Shown: piece after piece, positions 10,486 to 35,905 of the stretch | Position numbering within the stretch: the first letter of the stretch is position 1 | Layout: each line of letters begins with the position of its first letter | NCBI RefSeq assembly: GCF_900110855.1 | Contig: NZ_FOFA01000007.1 | Coordinates: forward strand, 186,001-250,000 | Reading direction: 5' to 3' | From: Microlunatus flavus | Lineage (GTDB): Bacteria > Actinomycetota > Actinomycetes > Propionibacteriales > Propionibacteriaceae | DNA: 64,000 nt | Made by a program: the position numbers and the translations under genes | The notes under the pieces: model-generated | What the model was told of the DNA's origin: nothing | Databases searched by the model: none | What the model saw: only the letters and a program-made list of their open reading frames with translations

Positions 10486-10902
10486 GTGACACCGCTGCTC
10501 CTCGACATCAACGGGCCCGAGTTCGCGCTGCTCATCGTGCTCGCGGTCATCCTCTTCGGCCCCGAGCGGCTGCCGGACCTCGCCCGCAAGGCCGCGCGGC
10601 TGATCAGCTTCCTCCGCGCCACGGCGAACAACGCCCAGCAGCAGCTCACGCGCGAGCTCGGCCCGGAGTTCCAGAACCTCGACTTCCGCGACCTCAACCC
10701 GCGCTCGTTCATCCAGAAGAACCTGCTCGACAACTCCCTCGTCGCCGACGTCAAGGCCGAGATCAGCGGCATCGGTGAGACGCTCTCGGAGTCTCAGGAC
10801 TCGGTCCGCAAGTCCATCGACGGCGCCGCCGACGACGGCCCGAACGACGCCATGGCCGCCGCAACCCCGGACCGTACGCCGTTCGACGGCGAGGCGACGT
10901 AA
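10486..10902 (+). CDS. tatB: Sec-independent translocase protein TatB
   Basis: A 138-residue twin-arginine translocase component. An N-terminal membrane helix (EFALLIVLAVILFGPERLP) ends in the TatA/B hinge motif, followed by an amphipathic helix (DLARKAARLISFLRATANN) and a long acidic cytoplasmic tail. A Glu lies at the start of the helix, typical for TatB. It begins with GTG 1 nt after the htrA stop. Placement of tatB behind sigE-rseA-htrA matches mycobacteria. Confidence 0.92.
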   Translation: MTPLLLDINGPEFALLIVLAVILFGPERLPDLARKAARLISFLRATANNAQQQLTRELGPEFQNLDFRDLNPRSFIQKNLLDNSLVADVKAEISGIGETLSESQDSVRKSIDGAADDGPNDAMAAATPDRTPFDGEAT

Positions 10903-29421: not shown

Positions 29422-30225
29422 CTAGCGACGTCGGGCTGCCGACGTCGGACCGGCGACGTCGGGCTGGCGGGAGGGCGAGCCCTGGCGGCGGAGCCAGGTG
29501 TCGTACGTGGTCGGCGCGAGCCAGGCGTCGCCGCCGGAGGTCGGGGTCAGCATCGAATCGGTGAGGACGGCCCCGAAGTAGGGCGCCTGGGGGTCGGTGA
29601 CCACCGGCCGCGGGTCGCCGGTGGCCGCGAAGAGGCGCCGGACGAGCGCGTCCAGGCCGAGCGGCTCGGGTCCGGCGACCTCGACCGTCCGGCCGAGCGG
29701 CGCGGCGGCCACGAGCTGCGCCAGGTGCGCGACGACGTCGGCGGACGCGATCGGCTGCAGGTGCGCCGGCGTCGCGTGCACCTGCCCGTCGCGTTCCCCG
29801 GCGTCCGCGATGCCCGGCACGAACTCGAAGAACTGCGTCGACCGGACGATCGAGAAGGGCAGGGGACCGTCCTGCACGACCTGCTCCTGGGCGAGCTTGG
29901 CGCGCAGGTAGCCCGAGTCCGGCACGCGGTCGGCGCCGACGATCGAGAGGACCACGTGGTGGCCCACCCCGGCCTCCCGCCCGGCGTCGAGCAGGTGCCG
30001 GCTCGAGGTGGTGAAGAACGCGAGGACCTCGTCGTCGGCCCACGACGGCGAGTTGGTCAGGTCCACGCAGACGTCGGCGCCGGCCAGCGCGTCGGCCAGG
30101 CCCTCGCCGGTGGTGGTGTCGATGCCGTCGCCGCGGCCGAGGGCCGTGGCGTCGTGCCCGTCCTCGACGAGACGGGCGCCGAGCTGGCGGCCGATCAGGC
30201 CGTTGCCGATGATGGCGATATTCAT
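29422..30225 (-). CDS. NmrA-like NAD(P)-binding oxidoreductase/epimerase (ECF41 target gene)
   Basis: A 267-residue Rossmann protein of the atypical short-chain dehydrogenase group. It opens MNIAIIGNGLIGRQLGARL and has VVLSIVGAD, then SGYLRAKLAQEQVV where the usual Tyr-x-x-x-Lys lies (Y-L-R-A-K). GGAGGAG before the ATG at 30225 is a strong ribosome site. ECF41 sigma genes are classically beside a carboxymuconolactone decarboxylase, oxidoreductase or epimerase gene, and this fits. It has its own TGTCACA-type promoter between it and the sigma gene. The substrate is unknown. Confidence 0.82.
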   Translation of the reverse strand: MNIAIIGNGLIGRQLGARLVEDGHDATALGRGDGIDTTTGEGLADALAGADVCVDLTNSPSWADDEVLAFFTTSSRHLLDAGREAGVGHHVVLSIVGADRVPDSGYLRAKLAQEQVVQDGPLPFSIVRSTQFFEFVPGIADAGERDGQVHATPAHLQPIASADVVAHLAQLVAAAPLGRTVEVAGPEPLGLDALVRRLFAATGDPRPVVTDPQAPYFGAVLTDSMLTPTSGGDAWLAPTTYDTWLRRQGSPSRQPDVAGPTSAARRR

Positions 30226-30259
30226 GTGCTGCTCCTCCGGGTTGCGGTTCCACCCTCCT

Positions 30260-30286
30260 GACCGGGCAGCGGGGTCAGGTGTGACA
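30260..30286 (-). promoter_or_regulatory. ECF41-type promoter of the oxidoreductase gene
   Basis: On the minus strand: TGTCACA (30286-30280), 16 nt, GGTC (30263-30260). ECF41 promoters are reported to have TGTCAC(A) and a CGTC-like -10. The -10 ends 35 nt before the start codon. The same arrangement occurs at the operon head at 34100-34126. Confidence 0.72.
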
Positions 30287-30296
30287 CCCGGCCCGG

Positions 30297-31256
30297 TCAG
30301 TCGCCGCGAGAGCCCGAGCGCAGGAAGCCGGCGATCTTGTCCGGGTTCAGCTGCCACTGCAGCTCCTCGATGCCCGCGTCGGTGGCGCGCATCGTCAGCA
30401 CCGCCAGCGGGACGCCCTCCGCGTCGCGGACCAGCGCTGCCGGGCGTCCGTTGGCCTCCACCTGCTCGACGTGTGCGCCGTCCCAGAAGCGGCGGGCCCG
30501 GAACGCCGCGACGAAGGCGGCGACCCGCTCCCGGCCCGTGACCGGGAGCCGCGCCACCCCGCGGATGCCGTTCCCGTCGGACAGGGTCACGACGTCCTCG
30601 GCCAGCAGGCGCTCGAGCGCGGCGACGTCGCCGCTCTGCGCGGCCTGCAGGAACGTCTCCATCAGGCGCCGGTGCACGCCCGGCGCGACCTCCGCTCGCT
30701 GCGGGGAGGAGAGGTGCCTGCGCGCGCGGCTGACCAGCTGGCGGGCGTTGGCCGGGCTGGTCCCGAGGACCTCGGCGACCTCGCCGAAGGCGTAGTCGAA
30801 GGACTCGCGCAGGAGGTAGGCCGCACGCTCGGTCGGTGTCAGCCGTTCCAGGAGCAGCAGCAGCGCGGTCCCGACCTCCTGGTCGCGCTCGACGCCGAGC
30901 GTGGGGTCGGCGCCGGTGTCGACGGGTTCCGGCAGCCAGGGGCCCAGGTAGGCCTCGCGCCGTACGCGGGCCGACTGCGCGACGTTCAGGGCGAGCCGGG
31001 CGGTGGTCGTGGTGAGGAACGCGACCGGGTTGTCCACGACGGAACGGTCCGTGCCCTGCCAGCGCAGCCACGCCTCCTGCACGACGTCCTCGGCCTCGGT
31101 CCAGCTGCCGAGCATCCGGTACGCGACCGCGAACAGCCGCCGCCGTACGGCAGCGAACGTCTCGGCCGCGTCGTCCAGGGGGTCGGAGGCCGCCGGCACA
31201 CCGGTGATGCTAGGCCCCGGCCGCGGCGCGGACGCCGTGGTGGCCGGAGGGGTCAC
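30297..31256 (-). CDS. ECF41-type (SigJ-like) sigma factor with C-terminal SnoaL-like domain
   Basis: A 319-residue sigma factor. Region 2 has RLFAVAYRMLGSWTEAEDVVQ and region 4 has LLRESFDYAFGEVAEVLGTS. The ECF41 marks are present: WLPEP in the linker (107-111), DGNG (cf. DGGG) at 227-230, and NPDKI (304-308) in the fused C-terminal SnoaL-like domain that tunes activity in place of a separate anti-sigma factor. The GTG start overlaps the cytochrome b stop (GTGA), so it is translated with that gene. Unlike the usual isolated ECF41 gene, it sits at the end of a respiratory-type operon. Confidence 0.9.
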   Translation of the reverse strand: MTPPATTASAPRPGPSITGVPAASDPLDDAAETFAAVRRRLFAVAYRMLGSWTEAEDVVQEAWLRWQGTDRSVVDNPVAFLTTTTARLALNVAQSARVRREAYLGPWLPEPVDTGADPTLGVERDQEVGTALLLLLERLTPTERAAYLLRESFDYAFGEVAEVLGTSPANARQLVSRARRHLSSPQRAEVAPGVHRRLMETFLQAAQSGDVAALERLLAEDVVTLSDGNGIRGVARLPVTGRERVAAFVAAFRARRFWDGAHVEQVEANGRPAALVRDAEGVPLAVLTMRATDAGIEELQWQLNPDKIAGFLRSGSRGD

Positions 31257-32752
31257 GGCCCGTCCCCGGCCGCGATGGGCTCGGGCGGGCCGGCCGCCGT
31301 CAGGGTCCTCGGCGCGCGTGCGGACGGCACCGGGACGTGCCGCTCGGTGAAGCCGCCGTCGGGGGACTGCTCGAGGACGCCCGATTCGGCGCCGTCGCGC
31401 TCCCGTTCCTCCTCGTACGCGCGCAGCGTCCGGCACGCCGTCCGCGCGACCGCGAACGCGAGCACCGGGCCGGCCAGGAGGACCACCCGGAGCGCGACGA
31501 CCACACCCTCGAAGGAGAGGTGCAGCTGGGTGGCGAGCAGGTCGGCGCTGCCGGCCAGCCAGAGCGTGCCGTAGAAGGTGGCGCCCGCCGCGCCGACGCC
31601 GGTCCGCGCCGGCCGGTCACGCGGGCGGTCGAGCACCTGGTGCTCGCCCCGGTCGCCGCCGAGGCGCTCCTCGAGGAGCGGCCAGGCGAGCAGCACCGCG
31701 AAGAACGTGCCGATGGCCGCGAGCGGCACGAGGACCGCGAGGGTCCAGGTCCGGCCCGCGACCGAGAGCTCCCAGCCGGGCGGGACCAGGCGGAGCGCGC
31801 CGTCGAGGAACGCCGTGTACCAGTCGGGCTGGCTGCCGGCGTACGCATCGGCGGGGGAGGCCGGGCCGTAGCGCCAGACCGGGCTGATGGTCATCGTGGC
31901 GCCCATGAGGGTGAGGACCCCCGCGGTGATGAAGCCCAGGCCGAGCACGCGGGCCGCCGCCTGCGGCCAGGCCGGCAGGCCCACCACCCGGTCGGCGTCC
32001 CGTCCGGCGCCGGGCAGCTGGACCGGGCCCGCGCGGAGCACCAGCCGCAGCCGGAGCGCGACCAGCACGACGAGCGCCGCGGGCGCGAGCAGGTGCACGA
32101 CGTAGAGGTGCTCGACGACGCGGCCGGGGTACTCGCCGCCGAAGAGCGCGAAGGTCAGCCACGTGCCGACGAACGGAAGGGCGAGGGTCGTGCCCTCGAC
32201 GATCCGCAGACCGGTGCCGGACAGGTCGTCGTCGGGGAGCCCGTAGCCGCTCCACCCGGCCCCGAGCACGACGACGAACGTGGCGACCAGCAGCACCCAC
32301 GCCGCGCGTCGCGGCCGCCGGAACGCGCCCGTGAAGAACGCCCCGGTCAGCTGCAGGACGAGCGAGGCCGGGAGCACCAGCGCCGCCCAGTGGTGGGTCT
32401 GGCGCACCAGCAGCCCGCCGGGGACGTCGAGCGACAGGTGCACGGTCGAGGCGAAGGCCCGCGACACCGCCAGGCCGTGCAGCGGCGCGTAGCCGCCGGC
32501 GTAGGTCACGACCTCACCGGAGGGGTCGTACGCGGGCAGGAGCAGGAGGCCGGTGACGAGCAGCACGACGAAGCACCCGGCCGAGACCGTTCCCCACAGC
32601 AGCGCCCACGTCGTCGGTTGCGCCCGGTGGTGCAGCGTCCGCGCCAGGGCCGACGCCCGCCGGCCGAGCGGGTTGCCCTCGGCCAGCCAGGCGAGCAGGC
32701 GGCCCGAGCGCGTCGGGTCGGGCGGGTCGGGCTCGCGCTCAGCGGTCGGCAC
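31253..32752 (-). CDS. stand-alone QcrB-like cytochrome b missing one heme-ligand pair
   Basis: A 499-residue membrane protein clearly related to actinobacterial QcrB: VRQTHHWAAL, FFTGAFRRPR, SPVWRYGPASPADAYAGSQP, the quinol-site PDWY (309-312), and the C-terminal GATFYGTLWLAGSADLLATQ. Heme-ligand histidines expected in pairs 14 residues apart are only half present: His120 and His220 remain, but the partners are Gln134 and Arg234. One heme (the cytoplasmic-side bH by analogy) should be lost. No qcrA or qcrC is near. It overlaps NDH-2 by 14 nt and the sigma gene by 4 nt. Confidence 0.85.
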   Translation of the reverse strand: MPTAEREPDPPDPTRSGRLLAWLAEGNPLGRRASALARTLHHRAQPTTWALLWGTVSAGCFVVLLVTGLLLLPAYDPSGEVVTYAGGYAPLHGLAVSRAFASTVHLSLDVPGGLLVRQTHHWAALVLPASLVLQLTGAFFTGAFRRPRRAAWVLLVATFVVVLGAGWSGYGLPDDDLSGTGLRIVEGTTLALPFVGTWLTFALFGGEYPGRVVEHLYVVHLLAPAALVVLVALRLRLVLRAGPVQLPGAGRDADRVVGLPAWPQAAARVLGLGFITAGVLTLMGATMTISPVWRYGPASPADAYAGSQPDWYTAFLDGALRLVPPGWELSVAGRTWTLAVLVPLAAIGTFFAVLLAWPLLEERLGGDRGEHQVLDRPRDRPARTGVGAAGATFYGTLWLAGSADLLATQLHLSFEGVVVALRVVLLAGPVLAFAVARTACRTLRAYEEERERDGAESGVLEQSPDGGFTERHVPVPSARAPRTLTAAGPPEPIAAGDGP

Positions 32753-34067
32753 GGGGTGCCCCTGCGGCCACGAAGGCGTCGCGCGGGTGCTGCACGGACT
32801 GCAGGGAGACGATGTCGCGGCCGAACACGAGGGCCGGCAGCCAGGTCGCCAGGACGCGGACCTTGCGCTCCCAGGTGGGCACGGCCAGCACGTGGTAGCC
32901 GCGGTGCATCAGCCAGGCCGGGAACCCCTTCACGACCAGCGGGCCGGACTGGAAGATCCCGCGCCCGAGGCCGAGGGTGGCGACGACGCCCAGGCTGCGG
33001 TGCACGTACGGTTCCGGCTGCCGGCCGCGCAGGACGGCGACGACGTTGCGGGCGAGCAGTCGTCCCTGGCGCACGGCGTGCTGGGCGTTCGGGACGGTGA
33101 GCGTGCCGCCCTCGGGGGCGCTCAGGTCGGGGACGGCCGCGTCGTCGCCGGCCGCCCAGGCGTCGGGGACCGGGTCGGCGTCGGTGCCGACCCGCAGGTC
33201 GGGGCGTACGACGACCAGTCCGCGCTCGTTCACGGGCAGGTCGGTGTGCCGGGCGACGACCGGGTTGGCGCCGTTGCCGGCCGTCCAGACCACGAGGTCG
33301 GACTCGAGCCGGGTGCCGTCCGACAGCACGACGTGGCCGTCCTCGGCGGAGGTCAGGAACGTCTCGAGGTGCACGTGACCGCCGCGGCGCTCGAGCGAGC
33401 GCCGGACCCACTCGCCCGGTCCGGGCGAGACCTCCGGGAGGATGCGGCCGGTGCCCTCCACGAGGTGGAAGCCGAGGTCCGCCAGGGTGAGCGGCGGGTA
33501 GGCGCGCAGCAGGGCCGTCGCCAGCGACAGCAGCTCGCCGAACCCCTCGACGCCGCTGAAGCCGCCGCCCACCACGACCACGGTCAGCAGCCGCTGGCGC
33601 TCCGGACCGGGAGGCAGCGCCGCCGCCCGGTCGAAGGAGGTGAGCAGCCGGTCGCGGATGGCCACGGCCTCCTCGACGTGCTTCAGCCCGATCGCGTGCT
33701 CGCCGACGCCCGGGACCGGCAGCCGGCGCGTGACCGCCCCCGCCGTCACCACCAGTACGTCGTAGCCGAGGGTCTCCGGCTCCTCGCCGGCTCCGTGGTC
33801 GAGCTCGACCTGGCGGTGGGCGTGGTCGATCCGTGTCACCGCAGCGGGCACGAGCCGGGTGCGCCGCAGGTGCCGGCGCAAGGAGACCGCGGCGTGCCGG
33901 GCCTCGACCGAGCCCGCGGCGACCTCGGGCAGGAACGGCTGGTAGGTCATGTACGGCCGCGGGTCGACCAGCACGACCTCGGCCTCGCCGGGCCGCAGCA
34001 GCTTCTCCAGCCGCCACGCGGTGTAGAACCCCGCGTACCCGCCCCCGACCACCAGCACCCGCGGCAT
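32739..34067 (-). CDS. ndh: type II NADH:quinone oxidoreductase-like flavoprotein
   Basis: A 442-residue membrane-associated FAD protein of the NDH-2 family, which oxidises NADH and reduces quinone without pumping protons. The FAD motif is VLVVGGGYAGFYTAWRLEK at the N-terminus, the NADH motif VVVVGGGFSGVEGFGEL at about 165-182. WAAGDDAAVPD binds the flavin tail, followed by TVPNAQHAVRQGRLLARN. The C-terminal ~90 residues are hydrophobic/amphipathic, as needed for membrane contact. It is the first gene of the ECF41 operon. Other NAD(P)H dehydrogenases of this fold cannot be excluded. Confidence 0.88.
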   Translation of the reverse strand: MPRVLVVGGGYAGFYTAWRLEKLLRPGEAEVVLVDPRPYMTYQPFLPEVAAGSVEARHAAVSLRRHLRRTRLVPAAVTRIDHAHRQVELDHGAGEEPETLGYDVLVVTAGAVTRRLPVPGVGEHAIGLKHVEEAVAIRDRLLTSFDRAAALPPGPERQRLLTVVVVGGGFSGVEGFGELLSLATALLRAYPPLTLADLGFHLVEGTGRILPEVSPGPGEWVRRSLERRGGHVHLETFLTSAEDGHVVLSDGTRLESDLVVWTAGNGANPVVARHTDLPVNERGLVVVRPDLRVGTDADPVPDAWAAGDDAAVPDLSAPEGGTLTVPNAQHAVRQGRLLARNVVAVLRGRQPEPYVHRSLGVVATLGLGRGIFQSGPLVVKGFPAWLMHRGYHVLAVPTWERKVRVLATWLPALVFGRDIVSLQSVQHPRDAFVAAGAPRADR

Positions 34068-34099
34068 CGCCGCCTCCTCGTCTCGTCCGTCACCCTCTA

Positions 34100-34126
34100 G
34101 ACAAGGCAGGAGGCGGATCTGTGACA
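34100..34126 (-). promoter_or_regulatory. ECF41-type promoter of the NDH-2/cytochrome b/sigma operon
   Basis: On the minus strand: TGTCACA (34126-34120), 16 nt, TGTC (34103-34100), 32 nt before the NDH-2 ATG. -35 sequence, spacing and the shared GTC of the -10 match the promoter at 30260-30286. Three copies of AGGAGGCGGA (plus strand, about 34108, 34126 and 34154) lie around the -35. Confidence 0.7.
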
Positions 34127-34275: not shown

Positions 34276-34470
34276 ATGGTCAGTGATGAGCCCACACGAT
34301 CGGTCGTCAAGCGTCTACGTGATGCAGGCTTCCTGCCCGGGCGCACGGTCGGAAGTCACACGAAGTGGGTGAAGGGGTCGGTGTCAGTGTCAGTGCCGGA
34401 TGGACACCGGACCATCTCGGCGGGTGTGGTGCGGCAAGTCAACAGGGCGATCGAGGAGGCAGGGCGATGA
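34276..34470 (+). CDS. hicA: HicA-type toxin (mRNA interferase)
   Basis: A 64-residue basic protein with the HicA double-stranded-RNA-binding-like fold. RSVVKRLRDAGFLPGRTVGSH carries the catalytic-type His in GSHTKW, then VPDGHRTISAGVVRQVNRAI. Members cut mRNA and stop growth until bound by HicB. Its TGA overlaps the ATG of the antitoxin gene (ATGA). The lower GC content of the region suggests horizontal acquisition. Confidence 0.85.
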   Translation: MVSDEPTRSVVKRLRDAGFLPGRTVGSHTKWVKGSVSVSVPDGHRTISAGVVRQVNRAIEEAGR

Positions 34471-35027
34471 TGTACGAGGCGTTCGTCACCAGAGAGGGCC
34501 GTTGGTGGATGGTGCAGGTCCCCAGCATCGACGCAGTCACCCAAGCCCGGCACGTCGCTGAAGTGCCTCTCATGGCCCGCGAGCTCGTTGCCGTGCACGA
34601 GGGGCTCAAGCTCGAGGACGTCGAAGTCACGATCACCTACGGCGACATCAGTGGCGTCCCCGGCGATCGGGTAACCACCTTGCTCTTCGACCGAGAGGTG
34701 TCCGACAGGATCAATCGGAACGTTGCCGAGCGCACCAGCCGGCTTGCGCGCGATCTGGTGAGCGCCGAGGTTCCGCTCCGCGAGGTCGCCGAACTCATCG
34801 GGGTATCCCACCAACGCGTGCATCAACTCGTCACCACGGCGGTGCCTACCACCGAAGGCGTCAGCTCTGAACTTCCTGAGGAGCCGGAGGCTGAGGTCGT
34901 CGACCTCGTCGCCGCCTTGCGCAAGAGCGTGGAGGACGCGCGCGGTCGACGAGAGGCTGATTTGGTGGCCGGTGGCTCAGCGAGCGCTGAAAGAGTTCCT
35001 GGCAAGGGATTGGCCGGTCGAGCATGA
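34467..35027 (+). CDS. hicB: HicB-type antitoxin with C-terminal HTH
   Basis: A 186-residue protein. The N-terminal RNase H-like HicB fold starts MMYEAFVTREGRWWMVQVP. Next comes a helical region and an HTH (LREVAELIGVSHQRVHQLV, about 109-127), which should bind the operator. The acidic C-terminus (SSELPEEPEAEVVDLV) could wrap the toxin. It is longer than most HicB proteins. The last ~20 residues are low-complexity; a neighbouring frame reads AQRALKEFLARDWPVEH, so a frameshift near 34970 is possible. Confidence 0.75.
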   Translation: MMYEAFVTREGRWWMVQVPSIDAVTQARHVAEVPLMARELVAVHEGLKLEDVEVTITYGDISGVPGDRVTTLLFDREVSDRINRNVAERTSRLARDLVSAEVPLREVAELIGVSHQRVHQLVTTAVPTTEGVSSELPEEPEAEVVDLVAALRKSVEDARGRREADLVAGGSASAERVPGKGLAGRA

Positions 35028-35248: not shown

Positions 35249-35500
35249 CCACGCCCTCCCAAGCTTGCTGGCGGTGCGCGCAGTTCCTCCGGCGACGCGG
35301 ATCCGCAGGGGTGGCGAGTCCTTAATCGAGCGGTCCTGCAGGTGTTCAAGCCACGGCAGTTCCAATGGGCCAGGCGGCCGTCGCGGCGTGCAGGTGCCCC
35401 CATTCATCTCCGGTTGCACACGCATCCGCGCGACCTGGTCTGGACGAGGCGGCGCGCGTGAGCCAGAAGGACGACCTGACACCTCGGCCGGCGAGGAGGG
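35249..35500. other. intergenic stretch between the HicAB operon and rnpB
   Basis: No gene is supported here. A GTGTTCAAGCC string near 35341 recalls a tRNA T-arm, but no acceptor stem or anticodon arm can be built around it. The 3' end of rnpB lies at the right edge. Confidence 0.5.
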
Positions 35501-35905
35501 GGACGAGCCGGTCGGTAAGCCGGATTCTGTCCCTCCGCCGAGGCGGAGGGGGCGACCATCCATCTGCGACCGCTGTCGCCAGCGGCCTGGTGCGACCTAC
35601 CCGGGAGCTCGGGCGAGCAGCCCTCGAACGCTCCCGCGGCGTCCTCCTCTGCAGGAGGGTGCCTTCTTGGTCTTGCTCCCGGTGGGGTTTGCCGAGCCAC
35701 CCCTGTCACCAGGGGCGCTGGTGGTCTCTTGCACCACCGTTTCACCCTTACCCGCCGGCCGAGGCCGACGGGCGGTCTGCTTTCTGTGGCACTGTCCCGC
35801 GGGTCACCCCGGGTGGGCGTTACCCACCACCGTGCTCTTCGGAGTCCGGACTTTCCTCGACGCCCGCCCGAGGGCGTACGCCGCGGCCGCCTGACCGACT
35901 CGTCC
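35501..35905 (-). ncRNA. rnpB: RNase P RNA (bacterial type A)
   Basis: The ~405-nt catalytic RNA that matures tRNA 5' ends. Read on the minus strand, helix P1 pairs 35905-35893 with 35513-35501 (13 bp, one G-U). The universal GAGGAAAGTCCGGACTCC lies at 35858-35841. GGTAAGGGTGAAACGGTGG follows near 35753-35735, and the conserved 3' ACAGAATCCGGCTTACCGACC ends at about 35512. The ends are set by P1 and could shift a few nt. GC-rich arms fit an actinobacterial type A fold. Confidence 0.95.

Follow-up and report, generated by a model that had tools for sequence, protein, structure and literature searches.

The locus described here, on the minus strand of Microlunatus flavus contig NZ_FOFA01000007.1, combines genes for a type II NADH dehydrogenase (NDH-2)-like flavoprotein (ndh), a cytochrome b paralogue, and an ECF41-type sigma factor, followed by an NmrA-like oxidoreductase gene (nmrA). 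The cytochrome b has lost both ligands of heme bH, and ndh is preceded by an ECF41-type promoter that is conserved before its relatives. We favor an autoregulated ECF41 module as the reading of this locus, with NDH-2 and a bL-only cytochrome b incapable of a Q cycle working together, and we regard this as rather probable. A broader reading is put forward only tentatively: bL-only cytochromes b would be a natural and conserved family that has abandoned the Q cycle and that, together with NDH-2, makes up a functional unit within a multi-promoter ECF41 stress regulon.

Gene layout of the locus

In the window, i.e., the whole stretch of 64,000 nt, the minus-strand order is ndh, cytochrome b, sigma gene, and nmrA (Table 1). 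The reading frames of ndh and cytochrome b overlap by 14 nt, and those of cytochrome b and the sigma gene by 4 nt. The sigma gene has a putative GTG start, and its open frame extends further upstream. The genes, the overlaps, and both promoter sites were all located where a preliminary description of this DNA had placed them. A search for the gene order in relatives, suggested in the same description, was borne out in part: ndh, cytochrome b, the sigma gene, and nmrA are complete with both promoters in one relative (locus L054), but the sigma gene often lies apart in others. It is absent from the 18 kb around the ndh–cytochrome b pair in L055, L058, and L059, and genome G095 has kept the ndh site with no local sigma gene.

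Table 1. Features of the ECF41-linked locus (positions in the window)
Feature	Position	Strand	Basis
ECF41-type promoter of the operon	34100..34126	-	TGTCACA-N16-TGTC, 32 nt between its end and the ndh ATG; conserved before ndh relatives
NDH-2-like flavoprotein (Pyr_redox_2), 442 aa	32739..34067	-	Pfam PF07992, 3.4e-39; matches to solved NDH-2
Cytochrome b (QcrB) paralogue, 499 aa	31253..32752	-	Ligand alignment, predicted fold
ECF41-type sigma factor, sigma2 + sigma4 + SnoaL-like extension, 319 aa	30297..31256	-	Pfam, match to SigJ 5xe7, WLPEP
ECF41-type promoter of the NmrA-like gene	30260..30286	-	TGTCACA-N16-GGTC, 34 nt between its end and the ATG
NmrA-like NAD(P)H-binding oxidoreductase ("COE" partner), 267 aa	29422..30225	-	PF13460, 7e-9

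No qcrA, qcrC, other qcr gene, Rieske protein, or cytochrome c was found among the neighbors scanned (genes between 26.5 and 35.0 kb), which belong to other families or are unmatched. Within 34276–35027 on the plus strand, divergent from ndh, lies a small HicA-toxin-like ORF (Pfam 1.4e-5, just under the cut-off), and the ORF after it gives weak helix-turn-helix matches; the two are a possible toxin–antitoxin pair. A bacterial class A RNase P RNA (272 bits) is located at 35500–35902 on the minus strand.

Loss of the heme bH ligands in the cytochrome b paralogue

The preliminary description had called the cytochrome b QcrB-like, and this holds for its fold and overall similarity. The product has a Pfam Cytochrome_B match, its closest solved relative is QcrB 7q21 (5.8e-103), and the NCBIfam QcrB score (480.5) is below the cut-off (500). 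The predicted model (mean pLDDT 75.8, with low confidence at residues 291–309, which border on PDWY) has a cytochrome b fold and superimposes on QcrB 9gy6_B with a Z score of 39.8 and an rmsd of 4.3 over 454 aligned residues. The protein is, however, not an ordinary QcrB, as both heme bH ligands are missing. In cytochrome b, we take the first His pair to bind heme bL and the second pair to bind heme bH. Two of the four His residues that mark two b hemes are present in the window protein: the heme bL ligands His120 and His220 are kept together with PDWY (309–312), and the heme bH positions are occupied by Gln134 and Arg234. The other QcrB of the M. flavus genome has all four His residues.

These substitutions are shared by the paralogues of other genomes. 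In an alignment of 16 paralogues with 13 ordinary QcrBs, the second His position of helix B (134) is Gln in 16/16 paralogues and His in 13/13 QcrBs. The corresponding position of helix D (234) is Arg in 12 paralogues, Trp in two, Leu in one, and Gln in one, versus His in all 13 QcrBs. None of the 29 sequences has lost His120, His220, or PDW. A wider set comprised 30 Gln-type rows, representing 28 distinct genes (L196 = L062 and L199 = L063), and 35 His-type rows, one of them partial; L082 (four His by eye) and L084 were left out. All 30 Gln-type rows are without both bH ligands. Position 220 reads Val in L198, Ile in L075, and Val in L083, probably an effect of local gaps when the sequences were aligned in pairs; in the multiple alignment, which did not include L198, both L075 and L083 have His at this position. 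A replacement ligand for heme bH was considered and rejected, since helices B and D of the Gln-type sequences contain no conserved substitute. Arg137, found in every one of the 13 ordinary QcrBs, is also lost in the Gln-type, and many QcrB-specific residues beyond the heme pocket are changed as well. In a tree of 55 sequences, the 27 of the Gln-type group together in a single clade (support 1.0), even with the two ligand columns masked. The best reading of these sequences is that the paralogue can hold only heme bL and is thus a one-heme cytochrome b. In-frame stops occur in two cytochrome b relatives, that of G404 and the G362 copy on contig C37. A cytochrome b fragment with the helix B His (L174:3762–4313, plus strand) lies downstream of an ndh relative with a promoter; its helix D would fall beyond the locus end.

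In the mycobacterial complex, heme bL is near the periplasm and the quinol-oxidation site, according to the accessible text of PMC8616580. The paralogue resembles the actinobacterial QcrB of the bcc–aa3 supercomplex (7q21, 6adq) in fold, heme bL ligands, and PDW(Y), and differs from it in the absence of both bH ligands, the linkage to ndh, and the lack of qcrA and qcrC among the neighbors scanned. A one-ligand laboratory mutant of Rhodobacter capsulatus cytochrome b, H212N, is described as a heme bH knock-out in the accessible parts of PMC4807273 and PMC4330944; as in the paralogue, a bH ligand is gone and bL is kept, whereas the paralogue clade is natural and conserved and has lost both ligands. 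Engineered dimers that pair an H212N half with a half whose Qo site is blocked (G158W) retain turnover via bL–bL transfer, as far as the available part of PMC4330944 goes.

The NDH-2-like flavoprotein and its linkage to the cytochrome b

NDH-2 enzymes feed menaquinone. Judged by its sequence, the ndh product is a two-dinucleotide flavoprotein of the NDH-2 kind. Like type II NADH dehydrogenases, it is a Pyr_redox_2 flavoprotein, and its matches to solved NDH-2 cover most of the protein (best chain 9mqy_A, 1.4e-32). Unlike them, it belongs to a separate group, often with an ECF41-type promoter; it reached no NCBIfam cut-off and is 35% identical to the next closest NDH-2-like protein of the genome.

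The cytochrome b paralogue was found in 7/198 genomes of the family (identity of 50% or more, Gln confirmed), 14/391 of the order (E up to 1e-132), and 5/374 of the class (E up to 1e-128), which together are 18 different genomes. Its holders include Nocardioides, Promicromonospora, Myceligenerans, Isoptericola, Pseudactinotalea, and Curtobacterium. A close ndh relative is present in 18/18 of these genomes and lies within 20 kb of the paralogue in 14, eight of which have ndh directly upstream on the same strand. The cytochrome b is far from ndh in G101, G503, and G611, and the two genes are on different contigs in G678. In G611 and G678, the unlinked cytochrome b has its own TGTCACA-N16-CGTC, 30–31 nt before a start. 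An ECF41-type site in G503 heads a 151-aa ORF that precedes the cytochrome b gene (L223:7576–8031, minus strand), and the unlinked gene of G101 is preceded, at about 73 nt, by no more than a relaxed site. By eye, the 151-aa ORF is SnoaL/NTF2-like; it has no Pfam match. The distribution of ndh is wider than that of the cytochrome b: ndh was detected in 58/391 order genomes (E up to 1e-120) versus 14/391 for the cytochrome b, and 44 of the 58 have no cytochrome b at E up to 1e-132. As most ndh genomes are without it, ndh needs no cytochrome b, and the partnership is optional for ndh.

Promoter sites in the window, the genome, and the genus

Both promoter sites are exact and have 16-nt spacers. 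The motif TGTCACA-N15..17-NGTC was observed twice in the window versus 0.26 expected, and two or more matches occurred in 3/100 shuffles of the window; because shuffled sequences can match the two-site count, the window alone is weak evidence for promoters and leaves a chance origin of the two sites possible. The whole M. flavus genome has nine motif sites, compared with none for the motif read backwards, and 3/9 are at ECF41-linked genes. Among the seven sites outside the locus, only that of an operon on contig C9 is clearly ECF41-linked; the other six are unclear or probably due to chance. Summed over 20 genomes of the genus, 183 sites were counted versus 165 backwards (G092, 13 versus 11; G093, 8 versus 19; G097, 21 versus 5), and genome-wide motif counts therefore carry no weight. 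A wider regulon in the M. flavus genome was rejected on these grounds. Position and conservation before ndh relatives are far stronger evidence than motif counts.

A chance origin of the sites was rejected on the basis of conservation upstream of ndh relatives. The strict site TGTCAC[AG]-N15..17-NGTC is present in 36 of 78 ndh upstream regions, always 27–45 nt before the start, and in none when read backwards or on the opposite strand. With the first two bases left free, a site lies 15–75 nt before the start in 60/78 regions; the motif read backwards matched in none of these regions and the opposite strand in 5, and 200 shuffles averaged 0.42 (at most 4). The 78 loci come from related species, and these counts are accordingly not independent trials; they represent 78 of 79 loci, L213 being dropped because its ndh start failed to align, and L063 and L122 being outside the set. 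Where cytochrome b is directly downstream of ndh, the relaxed site is found in 15/15 cases, five of them strict; it is at an unusual distance of 58–63 nt in the adjacent pairs of L206 and L214. Even the relaxed site is missing in 18/78 regions. Among 55 sites with a 16-nt spacer, CTG is favored at spacer positions 11–13 (C in 42, T in 35, and G in 46).

ECF41-type sites also precede several nmrA relatives. Strict sites were counted in seven stretches of some 20 kb each, taken from five genomes of a single genus, and numbered 4 (L205), 3 (L207), 7 (L208), 1 (L209), 4 (L210), 5 (L212), and 3 (L213), compared with resampled means of 0.30–0.57 (largest 4) and none backwards. Several of the sites in the multi-site stretches precede NmrA genes, alpha/beta hydrolases, and a small cysteine-rich protein (104–113 aa). 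For these stretches and for the nmrA relatives, the start codon paired with each site was chosen by script within 18–90 nt, so the distances lean towards a match. No strict site was found in L206, L211, L214, or L217, though an ndh relative is present. In these four loci and in L120, ndh relatives without the strict site lie near a more distant sigma factor (38–40% identical, with WLPEP), and a second promoter type is perhaps used there. A fumarate-reductase-like flavoprotein gene follows an ECF41-type site by 43 nt in L207 (11052–12855) and in L210 (near 10716–10742); these genes diverge from nmrA–ndh, and the Pfam assignment is based on the L207 copy.

The sigma factor and known ECF41 systems

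The ECF41 type of the sigma factor, as assigned in the preliminary description, is supported by several features. The sigma2 and sigma4 domains (PF04542, PF08281) are above cut-off, a WLPEP linker motif is located at residues 107–111, and the SnoaL_2 match of the extension is below cut-off (24.7 versus 27 bits). The protein aligns with its solved relative SigJ (5xe7, 9.3e-46) into the extension, up to residue 282. In NCBIfam, SigJ is above the cut-off (280 versus 271 bits) and SigX4 just below it (316.2 versus 323.25).

The accessible part of Wecke 2012 (PMC3426412) states that WLPEP is a hallmark of ECF41, lists Pyr_redox_2 oxidoreductases and NmrA proteins among the partners, gives TGTCACA-N16-CGTC as the promoter, generally with one target gene or operon per factor, and reports that no signaling role of partner proteins was seen. 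The present locus agrees with these ECF41/COE systems in the sigma2–WLPEP–sigma4–extension build, the type of promoter, and the adjoining Pyr_redox_2 and NmrA-like genes; as in those systems, no anti-sigma gene was found among the neighbors scanned here. The −10 elements are TGTC and GGTC where the described promoter has CGTC, and the NmrA-like product matches NAD_binding_10, not the NmrA family of Wecke. Unlike the described systems, this operon includes a cytochrome b, and the locus has two promoters. Between three and seven candidate sites are present per 20 kb in some relatives, as opposed to the single target gene or operon argued for in the part of Wecke 2012 (PMC3426412) consulted; if functional, such multi-site stretches would exceed one target per ECF41 factor.

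The same genome has a second ECF41-type sigma gene (L060:4721–6866, contig C9), which is accompanied by a Pyr_redox_2 gene and by a TGTCACA-N16-TGTC site. Only 8 nt separate the end of this site from the likely ATG, and the message may therefore be leaderless.

Proposed mechanism and alternatives

The view that the operon and its promoters are likely read by an ECF41 factor is supported by both sequence and conservation, and this sigma factor most likely drives both transcripts. We infer from the linkage and the shared promoters that the cytochrome b partners NDH-2. Here, we propose the following mechanism. The fused SnoaL-like domain would hold the sigma factor inactive until a ligand or a redox change frees sigma, which would then transcribe ndh–cytochrome b–sigma from 34126–34100 and nmrA from 30286–30260. 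The preliminary description proposed that the trigger may be the redox or quinone state. NDH-2 would oxidize NAD(P)H at the cytoplasmic face and reduce menaquinone. The cytochrome b paralogue may carry only the outer heme bL, beside the PDWY quinol-oxidation site. With no heme bH, electrons could not return across the membrane, and therefore no Q cycle would operate. Most likely, the paralogue would bind the menaquinol made by NDH-2 and send single electrons through heme bL to an acceptor on the outer side. Under electrophile or oxidative stress, such an electron outlet may relieve over-reduction of the quinone pool.

Under stress, the paralogue might instead take the place of QcrB in the bc1–aa3 supercomplex, either by itself or in a mixed dimer; quinol oxidation and bL–bL exchange would be kept and a Qi branch removed, resulting in respiration with less proton pumping. 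The common fold and strong similarity with the supercomplex QcrB, the retained Qo motif and bL ligands, the four-His QcrB elsewhere in the genome, and the turnover of the engineered H212N/G158W dimers via bL–bL (PMC4330944, accessible part) would all suit such a replacement. It is nevertheless unlikely, as the linkage is to ndh with no qcr gene among the neighbors scanned, and as many QcrB-specific residues outside the heme pocket are altered too. The preliminary description implied a respiratory cytochrome b of the ordinary two-heme type as the partner of NDH-2. This is suggested by the name and overall similarity of the protein, but the loss of both bH ligands in all 30 rows of the clade, with no conserved replacement, makes it highly improbable.

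With respect to regulation, NDH-2 and the cytochrome b could act as a membrane sensor, reporting the state of the quinones to the sigma factor. They share an operon with the sigma gene here and in L054, and the ECF41 extension was proposed to respond to small molecules (PMC8999054, in the part available); the absence of a sigma gene within 18 kb in L055, L058, and L059, and the accessible text of Wecke 2012 (PMC3426412), where no signaling role of partner proteins was seen, make this role quite improbable. There is a small chance that the sites are read mainly by another ECF41 paralogue, such as that of contig C9, with the local sigma factor being a minor player. The C9 operon, with its Pyr_redox_2 gene and TGTCACA-N16-TGTC site, and the ndh site retained in G095 with no local sigma gene are in line with this, whereas L054 keeps the sigma gene and both sites together. 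We retain the autoregulated module with a bL-only cytochrome b as the preferred reading.

Novelty and implications

ECF41 is a widely distributed group whose physiological role is largely open; one ECF41 factor reportedly, by title, controls motility in Azospirillum. The coupling to ndh and cytochrome b had been presented as apparently undescribed in the preliminary description, which is correct for the cytochrome b only: Pyr_redox_2 and NmrA partners are described ECF41 classes, and, with ECF41, these partners, and the promoter all already in the accessible part of Wecke 2012, the regulatory claim is largely known. The words "NADH" and "cytochrome" have 0 occurrences in the main text of Wecke 2012 (PMC3426412) and PMC8999054. 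Among the literature matches listed, no title or abstract start concerned ECF41 control of ndh or cytochrome b, or a QcrB paralogue that naturally lacks heme bH; subscription papers (e.g., Wu 2019) were outside the scope of this search. The new part is the cytochrome b, and a prior description of it is possible.

A naturally bH-less cytochrome b, if true, would mean that the Qo half alone can be reused from the bc1 core, and it would be the natural counterpart of a well-studied laboratory mutant. The variant would surprise bioenergeticists if the one-heme count is confirmed. For the ECF41 group, a respiratory target makes the physiological role testable.
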